This document shows positions 35,854 to 40,962 of a stretch of 64,000 nt of DNA, piece by piece. A program made the position numbers and the translations under genes. The notes beneath the pieces were generated by a model that was not told the DNA's origin, searched no databases, and saw only the letters and a program-made list of their open reading frames with translations. This DNA is from Candidatus Ruthia endofausta. Its GTDB lineage: Bacteria > Pseudomonadota > Gammaproteobacteria > PS1 > Pseudothioglobaceae. The stretch spans positions 682,001 through 746,000 of the forward strand of contig NZ_CP054490.1 in the NCBI RefSeq assembly GCF_013342985.1, written 5' to 3'. How positions within the stretch are numbered: the first letter of the stretch is position 1; each line of letters starts with the position of its first letter.

Positions 35854-36275
35854 TTATCCAAGAATCTTATTCATCCTTATAATATTTTGTAATGATACGT
35901 CTTTAGGAGAAGCACACGTACAATGCCTGTGATTTGAACAACTACCGAAGCCTTCAGGTTGCATTTTTAAAATGAGTCTTTTGCCCTGTTTTTGGACTCA
36001 ATTTTACCTTGGGGTAATAATGCTAAATGGGTTATTTTTGCTGCCACAAACAGTGTTGCATTTTCATTTGGGCAAACCGCCACACAAGCACCACAAATAC
36101 CTTCACGATAATCATAATCAAACAGAATACAATCTCCACCTTGTGTGATTAACCGTTCATTTAGCTGATCTAACATTTCTAAAGATGACGTATCACTATC
36201 AACATTGTCAACCTCATAAACCACAAATCCACCTTGAGTATTTACGTTCTTTTATCGCCAAATATGCAATACAAA
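35854..36275 (-). pseudogene. sdhB: succinate dehydrogenase/fumarate reductase iron-sulfur subunit, decayed
   Basis: Recognisable pieces in order: 'GGFVVYEVDNVD', 'LEMLDQLNERLI', 'FDYDYREGICGAC' (the [2Fe-2S] loop), a deletion, 'LFVAAKITHLALLPQGK', and in another frame 'GFGSCSNHRHCTC' with 'SLQNIIRMNKILG' at the end. Several Cys ligands of the cubane clusters are gone or out of frame. Third gene of a C-A-B order. Confidence 0.85.
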
Positions 36276-36277
36276 AA

Positions 36278-37265
36278 TCATTTATAGTTTCTAATACTGA
36301 GCTTAATAAATTCAAAATGTAAGTGCTCTTCATGAAGTTTAGCCCCCTTTTGTTGATCCCACGCCGCAACAAAACTATAATTTTTATCATCACGCTTTGC
36401 TTCATCTTCTGAGGATAAATACTCCACTCGAGCATGTACATCACAAGATTCTTCTCTATAAAGGGTATCTTTACACGTCAGATAAAGTCAGCCATTTCTC
36501 TCTACACGCTCTAAAGTTTGATTTAAATCTTGGTTAATACCCGTGACCTTAATGATTTTACAAAACTCTAATTGCAATGTTTCAATTTCATTAATTGCTC
36601 AATTCTAACTTTAGCGGCATTTAAAGCTTGTTGAAGTTTTTCATGATTAGGCTTAATTTTATCAAACTTCTTTCTAGCTAAATAATTAGCAATAGTTTGT
36701 GGCAAAATAAAATAACCATCTGCCAAACCTTGCATGAGCGCAGAAACGCCAAATCGATTAGCATCGTGGTCTGAAAAATTAGCCTCGCCAGAAACAAACA
36801 AGCCATCAAACGTGGTCATTAAATTATAATCCACTCATGGAATAATGCGGTGCTGGGTATATTTTCATCGGCGTTAAATAAGGGTTATCGTCTGTAATGC
36901 GTTGATACATTTCAAACAAATTACCATATTTTTTCTCAACCTGTGCCAAGCCTATTTTTTTAATAACATCACTAAAATCTAAATATACGCCGAAGCGCCT
37001 GCCATGAATCTTAACACCAACCACGACCTTCATCACAAATGTGTTCAACAGAACGTGAAGCTACATCACGTGGTACTAAGTTAGCAAAAGTAGGATACGG
37101 CCTTTCAAGAAAATAATCTCGATTTTCTTCTTTGATGTCTTTTGGATTTTTCTCGCAATCTTTGGCTTGTTTTAGCTCCCAAATACGTCCATCATTTCTA
37201 AGCGACTCACTCATTAAAGTCAGTTTTGATTGATTTTCAAGTATTGGTGGAATGCAGTTTGGATG
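36278..37265 (-). pseudogene. sdhA: succinate dehydrogenase/fumarate reductase flavoprotein subunit, decayed
   Basis: Pieces in at least three frames: '[20 protein letters not shown]', '[13 protein letters not shown]', '[14 protein letters not shown]', '[14 protein letters not shown]', 'GLFVSGEANFSDHDANRFG' and the C-terminal 'KLHEEHLHFEFIKLSIRNYK'. The N-terminal FAD-binding domain is completely missing. The signature 'GEANFSDH-ANR-G-SALMQG' places it in the non-classical (SdhCAB, single-cytochrome) type. Not functional. Confidence 0.88.
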
Positions 37266-37277
37266 GATTTAATTGGC

Positions 37278-37529
37278 TCATAAAACCACACTCATTGGAA
37301 TAGAAATAAAACCAACCAGCAAAATTAATGCAAGCAAGACAAGCAGTAAATGGTAAGGTTTGCTTGAAATGTCTAACGTAATAGGATTAGATAACGCATG
37401 ATGTAAGTGTACACTAAGCGTTATCACACCTAGTGTGTAAATTATTAGCATTATGGGCTGGGAAGTCGTTTTGTCTTTTAAGACTGATATCTGAGCTAAT
37501 CTGAGCAAAGAAAGAACTGTCTCCTCCAA
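37278..37529 (-). pseudogene. sdhC: succinate dehydrogenase cytochrome b subunit, 3' part
   Basis: An 83-codon frame with two hydrophobic segments; 'TLGVITLSVHLHHAL' (possible haem His) and the end 'LLLVLLALILLVGFISIP' resemble the last helices of the b558-type SdhC. The 5' half is missing. Position directly before sdhA supports the call. Confidence 0.6.
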
Positions 37530-38055
37530 ACTCGCCTTAATCGCCTTTTTCTCCTTGTAATCCTAAAGCACCATCTTGTCCAACTTCACCTGTATCTCCC
37601 TTGGCACCTTGCAAACCAGTTAATCCTTTGCTAGAGATGAATACTTGTTATCTAACAATTGGACTTTAACATAACGACCCATTACAACACTCGTGTCAAT
37701 ACTATTACTTGGGTTGGGATAAGTATGAAAATCTTGTTGATAAGTAACACTATTAAAGTCAGCATCGGTGGAACACTAACTTAGTAGTTACTGAATCTGT
37801 CTTTACAGCAGCTACTGCGATTGTAAACAATGATTTGGTTGTTTTGTAAGTCAACACGCTACCAAGCGCCTTGTTGTTTTTGGCTATAGGTGGTGCTTTT
37901 GTAGTTGTAATTACTACTAGTGTTGCCATCAACGGCTCTTGAGGAAACAACCACCCCAGCCTGTGGAAGACTGTGTGGTGGGTTTATTGAGGGCTAGGTT
38001 GGTAGTAGTTGCGTGAACAGTAGTGGTTAATAAGGTGAAAGTCTTGAAGCCAATC
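37530..38055 (-). pseudogene. remnant of a secreted F5/8-type-C lectin with collagen-like repeats
   Basis: Read from the 5' side: a hydrophobic leader 'IGFKTFTLLTTTVHA', then 'NLALNKPTTQSSTGWGG', 'SSRAVDGNTSSNY', 'STTYSQKQQGAW', 'CCKDRFSNY', 'DFHTYPNPSNSIDTSVVMGR' and 'YVKVQLLD', the order of a fucolectin-like F5/8 type C (discoidin) domain. It is followed by about ten Gly-X-Y triplets (GLTGLQGAKGDTGEVG...) of collagen type. Frames change several times and stops interrupt. A sugar-binding, collagen-stalked surface protein would suit host contact; function is inferred from domains only. Confidence 0.82.
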
Positions 38056-38147
38056 AGTGTCTAATTAAACCATCAATATTGGAAGGTAGTTTTGTTTGTG
38101 GTAGGGCGGCAATGAAATGAAAGTATCAAAATAAGGCGCAAAGCCAT

Positions 38148-40962
38148 TTACTCAAAATCCTTAATGTCTGGACACGAGCAGAATAAATTTCGATCGCCAT
38201 ACACATTATCGATCCGTTTAACAGGTGGAAAGTATTTATTTTGTTTTAGTGAATCTACTGGGTATAACGCTTCTTCCCGTGAATAAGGGTATTGCCATTT
38301 TCCAGCCATTTCAATTGCTGAATGTGGGGCATTTTTAAGAAGATTGTTGTTCCTATCCCACTCGCCTTTAATTATTTTTTGAATCTCGGTATAAATACTA
38401 ATCATTGCTTTAATAAAACGATTAATTTCACGCAGTGATTCACTTTCTGTGGGTTCAATCATGAGTGTGCCCTGCCACTGGAAATGACATAGTTGGCGAA
38501 TGAAAACCATAGTCCATCAAACGCTTGGCAATGTCTTCCTCAGAGATACCACTTTGTTCTTTTAAAGGACGAATATCAATAATACACTCATGTGCGACCA
38601 TATTGTGCTCACCTTGATACAGAATCAGAAAATAATTTTTCAATTCGTTAGCAATATAGTTAGCACTCACAATTGCAACTTCGGTGGACTTTTGCATACC
38701 GTATTTACCTAGTAGCTTAATATATGACCAAGAAATTGGCAAGATTGAAGCGCTACCATACATAGCTGCGGATACAGCGTTAGAATTTTTAATTAGTGGA
38801 TTTCCTGGTAAAAACTCTTTCAAGTGCGCTTTAACGCCAATCGGTCCCATACCGGGACCACCGCCACCGTGCGGAATGGCAAACGTTTTATGTAAATTAA
38901 TATGTGACACATCTGCACCAAATTCACCCATACGAGTAATACCGACCATGGCATTTAGATTTGCACCGTCTAAATATACTTGAGCGCCATGGGTGTGAAT
39001 AATCTCGCATATTTGTTTAATTTTAACCTCAAATACGCCGTGGGTAGAAGGGTAAGTCACCATAATAGCTGATAATTTATCTGCGTATTTCTCAGCCTTT
39101 GTTGTTAAATCTTGAATATCAATATTACCAGATTCATCACATTTGACAATCACTACTTTCATGCCTGCCATGACTGCACTGGCAGGATTAGTACCGTGTG
39201 CTGATTGAGGGATTAGACAAATATTGCGCCCTTCTTCATCTCTAGACTGATGATACGACTTAATTGCTAAAAGACCTGAAAATTCACCTTGAGAGCCCGC
39301 ATTGGGTTGCAGAGAAGCTGCATCGTAGCCTCTAACTTCTACTAATACCCGCTCTAAATCTTGAAACAATTGCTGATAGCCTTTGGTTTGATTTTCTGGT
39401 GCATACGGATGCAAATCAGAAAAACCAGGTAGTGTAATTGGATACATTTGCGTCGCAGCATTAAGCTTCATAATGCAAGAGCCTAGTGCAATCATTGAAT
39501 GATTAAGCGCGATGTCTTTATTTTCCAAACGCTTCAAGTAGCGTAACATTTCAGTCTCACAGTGGTAGTTGCTAAACACAGGGTGAGTCAAATAATCTGA
39601 AGTACGTAAATTATTTTTAGTAATATTTAAAAGCAAATTTTCTGACTGATAATAAGCAGTTTTATCTCTTGATAGGATTGACACAAGGCATGATAATTCA
39701 TTAATTGTTGTAGTTTCATCAAGTGCGATGCTTAATTGGTTATCATTAATTAAACGTAAATTAATGTTGTTTGATTGTGCTGTATTAAACAAACTAATAG
39801 CATTAGTCGTATTAATAGTGATTGTGTCAAAAAATTGTTCTGTAACTAATTCAAAGCCCGCACTAGTCAAGCTTTTAGCAAGATTATTGGCTTTAGCATG
39901 CACACTTAACGCAATTTTTTTCAAGCCTTTAGCACCATGATAAATGCCATAAGCGGCAGCAAGCACTGCTAATAAAACTTGGGCAGTGCAAATATTACTG
40001 GTGGCTTTATCTCGACGAATGTGTTGCTCACGAGTTTGTAATGACATGCGCATTGCTGGATTACCTAAAACATCTTGAGACATGCCAATAATCCGACCTG
40101 GTATCATGTGTTTAAATTCATCACGCGTACTTAAAAATGCGGCGTGTGGTCCACCAAAACCCATTGGCACACCAAAGCGTTGAGAGCTTCCCACTGCAAT
40201 ATCAGCCCCCATTTCTGCAGGGGTTTTAATCAATGTTAGTGCTAAAAGGTCACAAGTAACAATGCTTAACACATCATTACCTTTTGCCCTAGTAATATCA
40301 GCAGTTAAATCTCGAACTTCACCATTTGTGCCTGGATATTGCATCAAACAAGCAAAACAACCACTAAAATCATCATGTTGAATGTCTTTAATAATCAACT
40401 CAATGCCTAACGGCTTGGCACGAGTTTGCAAAATGGTGATGGTTTGTGGATGGATGTTAATATCAATCAAAAAACAATTGGATTTGTTTTTCCTATTAGC
40501 GCGCTTGGCCATCATCATCGCTTCAGCACAAGCAGTTGGCTCGTCTAATAATGACGCATTGGAAATATCCATGCCCGTTAAATCAATAATCATTTGCTGA
40601 AAATTAAGCAGCATTTCCAAACGACCTTGAGAAATCTCAGCCTGATAAGGTGTATAAGCTGTGTACCAACCCGGATTTTCTAAAATATTGCGTTGAATGA
40701 GGACTGGCATCAACGTGCCATAATAACCTTGACCAATAAAATTAGTTGCCAAAATGTTCTTAGCAGCAAGGCTTGAAGCTAAAGCCAAAGTGTCTCGTTC
40801 AGTCATACCTTCATCAAGTGCCATTCGATTGCCAAATAAAATATCTTTAGACACTATTTTTGACACCACTTCATCAACAGATAAGCAACCAATACTGCTT
40901 AGCATAGCCTCAATATCATCTGCACTCGGGCCAAGATGTCTGGCTAAAAATTCGTTACTCAT
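38148..40962 (-). pseudogene. gcvP: glycine dehydrogenase (P-protein) with a single-base frameshift
   Basis: PLP-dependent decarboxylating subunit of the glycine cleavage system. Corrected, it spans about 938 codons, near the family's usual 950. The PLP-binding 'NLHKTFAIPHGGGGPGMGP' and all other conserved blocks are intact. Near codon 830 an extra G in a run of three (38470-38472) shifts the frame: 'MSFPVAG' continues as HTHD and a stop, while '[12 protein letters not shown]' and the last 100 residues are in the next frame. Either a very recent pseudogene, a programmed slip, or a sequence error. Confidence 0.85.

Follow-up and report, generated by a model that had tools for sequence, protein, structure and literature searches.

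Remnant of a collagen-stalked F5/8C lectin, a probable adhesin, in the genome of a clam symbiont

For the F-type lectins, the fucose motif has been described as a His, a spacer and Arg-X-Asp-X4-Arg/Lys, with the spacer given as 24 in the text of the available part of the source while eel lectin residues 52 and 79 imply 26, and the cation motif as a small hydrophobic pair followed by Asp-Gly-small polar (PMC5712786). In the symbiont literature, as far as the available portions of the sources go, Bathymodiolus mussels acquire their symbionts from the surroundings (PMC4612132), and clam symbionts are inherited maternally with occasional movement between hosts (PMC7004080). In the genome of the thermophilus mussel symbiont, 10.74% of the genes carry adhesion- or toxin-type domains (PMC5581435). 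Among the literature matches listed, as represented by their titles and abstract openings, neither an experiment on the present lectin family in symbionts nor a publication on this lectin in clam symbionts was found.

The locus described here lies in the window, the whole stretch of 64,000 bases that was analysed (G000:C1:682001-746000), and the host genome is a single contig of 1,188,809 bases. Compared with the described lectins, the cation motif was found in a window piece as AVDGN. The fucose motif was absent, its His and Asp being replaced by Tyr and Ser in the window and by Asn and Asn in G007, a genome of the same genus that holds a second copy. In g4, a genus that includes named mussel symbionts, 17 open domains were examined, and 12 of them have the motif, its spacer measuring 26 or 27. 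Since the remaining 5 deviate as well, the replacement of His and Asp is no proof of decay.

Identity and extent of the remnant

The lectin pseudogene was located at positions 38042 to 37465 on the minus strand, its homology extending about 65 bases beyond the lower end given in the preliminary description (Table 1). This was deduced from a tblastn alignment (5e-28) of a protein of the B. brooksi thiotrophic gill symbiont, which matched the window in four collinear pieces, the first three as in Table 1 and the fourth at 37629-37465 in frame -2, with three frame changes and three in-frame stops. The collinearity with this unbroken homologue bears out the proposal that an F5/8C lectin persists with its domains in the correct order across shifting frames. 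The segment following the collagen run matched residues up to 231 of the G050 protein and residues 122-142 of the protein of G024, a B. heckerae symbiont (tblastn). A signal-like leader had also been proposed; only its last part, from 38042, is present in the window, and the longer leader with its start region and ATG, as found in G007, is missing. At the other end, blastn, tblastn and alignment agree that the lectin homology ends at 37465 and sdhC homology starts at 37464, the sdhC tail thus replacing the 3' half of the lectin.

Table 1. Features of the lectin remnant and its neighbours (window coordinates)
Feature	Position	Strand	Basis
gcvP (upstream), which a frame change splits close to its 3' end	38148..40962	-	835 aa frame
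Short gene remnant between gcvP and lectin	38044..38115	-	Counterpart in G007 (blastn 38115-38032)
Piece 1: leader end and F5/8C start	37962..38042	-	Frame -3; tblastn, B. brooksi symbiont residues 8-35, 54% identity
Piece 2: F5/8C middle, two in-frame stops	37772..37945	-	Frame -1; tblastn, residues 44-105, 53% identity; PF22633
Piece 3: F5/8C end	37626..37772	-	Frame -3; tblastn, two homologues (37745-37626, 37772-37626), 50-51% identity
Collagen-like Gly-X-Y run, 12 triplets, one stop inside	37519..37626	-	Frame -2
Post-collagen segment, common to B. brooksi and B. heckerae symbiont proteins	37465..37518	-	tblastn
Truncated sdhC tail, fused to the lectin remnant	37264..37464	-	blastn, 82-86% to G004, G007 and G008; alignment
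Broken sdhA and sdhB, downstream neighbours	35967..37214	-	blastn against the open sdhA and sdhB frames of G004 and G008

The domain assignment is supported by profile searches of the pieced translation. When the window pieces were joined by X, both F5/8C families were matched above their curated cut-offs, PF22633 at 6.4e-11 (43.2 bits against 27.8) and PF00754 at 2.7e-8 (34.4 bits against 28.2); three shorter pieces, each searched alone, gave no match. A PF22633 search of the whole genome found only the lectin locus (1.8e-7, 31.9 bits, above the cut-off) with two stops inside the match, and no second copy was found in this genome, as both matches of the G007 protein fell on the same locus. 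Where about ten Gly-X-Y triplets had been reported, 12 were found when the run was read across one stop. The longest such run elsewhere in the window was 3, and 40 simulated windows from a second-order Markov model reached 3 or 4. Pfam Collagen (PF01391) matched the window piece at 1.6e-5 with 25 bits (24.1 bits in a second search), slightly below its curated cut-off of 27.2.

The identity of the remnant as an F5/8C lectin with collagen, and its decay, are well supported. We take it to be the pseudogene of a secreted, collagen-stalked lectin adhesin lost in general genome reduction, a reading to which we assign a probability of roughly 0.8. When functional, the protein would have carried a signal peptide for export and an F-type (fucolectin-like) discoidin domain, presumably glycan-binding, mounted on a collagen-like stalk that was probably trimeric; RCC1-like repeats presumably came next, as in the B. 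brooksi symbiont. A role in surface attachment is likely, in which the protein may have anchored the bacterium to glycans on host or neighbouring cells.

Neighbouring genes and the second copy

In the window, gcvP is followed by the short remnant and then by that of the lectin, after which come the tail of sdhC, the broken sdhA and sdhB genes and a further gene that presumably encodes malic enzyme. Open gcvP frames of 941-949 aa were found in six other genomes of the genus; gcvP is broken in G007, has left only traces in G009 and had no match in G001, G005 and G006. For the short remnant between gcvP and the lectin, a family search of its G007 counterpart found none. From 35967 to 37464, sdhC, sdhA and sdhB are all broken. 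In two other genomes of the genus, G004 and G008, sdhC precedes sdhA and sdhB frames that are open, and the sdhC frame of G008 matched sdhC_b558_fam at 1.4e-21 (77 bits against a cut-off of 96).

In G007 the lectin lies at the same place, directly after gcvP, and is broken by other lesions. Its leader, middle and end are in frames 1, 2 and 1, giving two frame changes that are absent from the window alignment, and it ends within its collagen-coding stretch, ahead of a transposase that has an integrase core. By eye, no disabling lesion is common to the two copies. The G007 copy gave no Collagen match of its own. G007 contains two copies, 99.8% identical, of a 2,181-base piece that carries the broken lectin and the transposase (L061 3716-5896, L062 8804-6624).

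The alignment of the window and G007 copies spans 128 codons, of which 126 were compared after removal of two stops. The differences at codon positions 1, 2 and 3 numbered 18, 18 and 44 (binomial 5.5e-5 against one third) and dN/dS was about 0.17, from which it is concluded that the lectin gene was constrained for much of the divergence. The synonymous difference of the lectin (pS 0.50) was higher than that of lon (0.22) or of the part of gcvP compared (0.29), an excess that plain orthology would not predict.

Distribution and cause of the loss

Searches covered the 83 genomes of the family, 12 of them in the genus of the window. At a threshold of 0.001 the G007 protein matched 7 of the 83, namely 2 of 12 in this genus and 5 of 12 in g4, the latter including symbionts of Bathymodiolus sp. 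5 South, B. azoricus, B. brooksi and B. heckerae as well as G042. A check for an intact homologue in free-living SUP05 or horizontally transmitted symbionts had been suggested. For the former it gave no support, none of the 59 genomes in the family's other nine genera (chosen by genus, not lifestyle) giving a match at 0.001; for the latter, unbroken homologues occur in gill symbionts of Bathymodiolus mussels. PF22633 matched 12 of 95 relatives, including four of other families and G027, which belongs to a different genus of the family and whose domain differs from the lectin studied here. Within the genus, G002, G003, G004, G008, G010 and G011 showed no remnant beside gcvP or sdh when fetched stretches were searched with four homologues (tblastn to E 1), and whole-genome searches at 0.001 gave no lectin match in G001, G005, G006 and G009.

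Some features of the wider relatives were also recorded. PF22633 matched 22 times in G042 and 23 times in G058, both of g4, and several proteins at g4 loci L086, L091, L095 and L096 join F5/8C domains to repeats; RCC1 matches were seen in two scanned g4 proteins, L086 and L090. In the larger genomes G004 (L192, G004:C1:890300-891112) and G008 (L191, L194), other collagen-like frames scored above the Pfam cut-off and are not tied to the lectin.

In a scan of bacterial contigs, 111 relatives were found and 80 retained, of which the top 16 were all from Bathymodiolus symbionts, mostly at 54-60% identity with two at 45-48%, and the next best relative was at 45%. A domain tree of 127 bacterial rows was built by a quick method on few columns. 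Its input excluded identical matches, those shorter than 86 residues and those containing stops; no locus contributed more than four, and loci L097-L112 were left out, the same mussel symbionts being represented by other loci. In this tree the window and G007 copies form a pair (SH-aLRT 98), which joins 21 g4 domains at a support of 86, under the starred level, with 104 other bacterial domains outside. In the genus tree of lon and gcvP, rooted on G008 by choice, the window groups with G002 (100/100) and the other relevant forks are weak. Two mobile sources were considered and rejected: the G007 copy had no match in 50,697 phage records at 1e-5, and window 36500-38500 matched two plasmid records only by pieces of sdhA and gcvP. 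Transfer from an animal host, considered as a further origin, lies outside the bacterial rows of the tree. Since the lectin occurs in both the window and G007, an ancestral gene with repeated loss is the simplest reading, and spread by transfer between symbionts is also compatible with the data. It may be proposed, very tentatively, that the ancestor of the clam symbionts had a working host-contact lectin, selected until fairly recently, which the lineages lost independently. If so, the dates of loss could mark when each lineage stopped infecting hosts from outside.

The lectin would have been lost as its start region disappeared, three shifts of frame and three stops arose and a deletion joined it to sdhC, probably as part of general genome reduction. 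Such reduction suffices because the neighbouring metabolic sdhCAB genes are broken too, and it explains the loss equally well as the strict vertical transmission favoured in the preliminary description. That proposal, in which inheritance through the egg made adhesion superfluous and the lectin disappeared for this reason rather than by unselective erosion, is consistent with the clustering of its relatives in mussel symbionts, which come from the environment (PMC4612132, from the portion available), and with two copies in the genus broken by different lesions after long constraint. It is nevertheless unlikely in our judgement, because the adjoining metabolic genes also decay, the G007 protein has no match in 7 of the 12 g4 genomes (a count by genus, not by host) or in 10 of the 12 of the present genus, and clam symbionts sometimes switch hosts, according to the part of PMC7004080 available.

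Slightly less likely, though in line with the colonisation, matrix and phage-protection roles proposed for attachment-related proteins of the thermophilus mussel symbiont in the available part of PMC6976577, is that the ancestral protein served an inter-symbiont matrix or phage defence and not host contact. That the breaks are sequencing or assembly errors in a whole gene is highly improbable: they are known from the assembled sequence alone and neighbours such as gcvP also show frame changes, but three substitution-type stops, the missing start region and the sdhC junction exceed indel noise, many housekeeping frames in the window are uninterrupted, and the gene is broken in G007 too.

With the remnant read as a lost adhesin, the locus shows that a clam symbiont retains the ruins of a contact-type lectin whose relatives have multiplied in some mussel symbionts, and together with G007 it provides two syntenic copies that broke separately and bear signs of past constraint. 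The loss of an adhesin en route to egg inheritance could thereby be made datable and comparable across genomes. In other respects it is ordinary, one pseudogene in a shrinking genome.

Comparison with known proteins

The closest counterpart is the protein of the B. brooksi symbiont (NZ_CAHJWD020000022.1; L090, L106), an open frame of 686 aa whose start is not seen because the frame runs to the contig end. It matched F5/8C, Collagen (35.4 bits) and RCC1, all above cut-off. Like the window copy, it comprises the end of a leader, the F5/8C domain, the collagen run and the post-collagen segment in the same order. It is uninterrupted and continues into RCC1-like repeats, whereas the copy in the window is interrupted and runs out into sdhC.

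When the G007 copy was used as the query against PDB, six distinct sequences were found up to E 0.1, all of them F-type lectin kin, the best being FBP32 (3cqo, 4.7e-14) and others including a fucolectin-related entry (2j22, 6.7e-9) and eel lectin (1k12, 1.9e-5). These entries differ from the present lectin in that no collagen stalk or RCC1 occurs in the matches, and the window and G007 copies differ in lacking the His and Asp of the motif. The collagen stretch of the B. brooksi protein, in turn, resembles the NCBIfam entries Scl2/SclB, Scl1/SclA and Lcl (1.1e-11 to 1.4e-8). Its scores of 44, 41 and 34 bits lie far below the respective cut-offs of 325, 400 and 500, so it is not a member of these families, and their head domain is unlike that of the B. 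brooksi protein.
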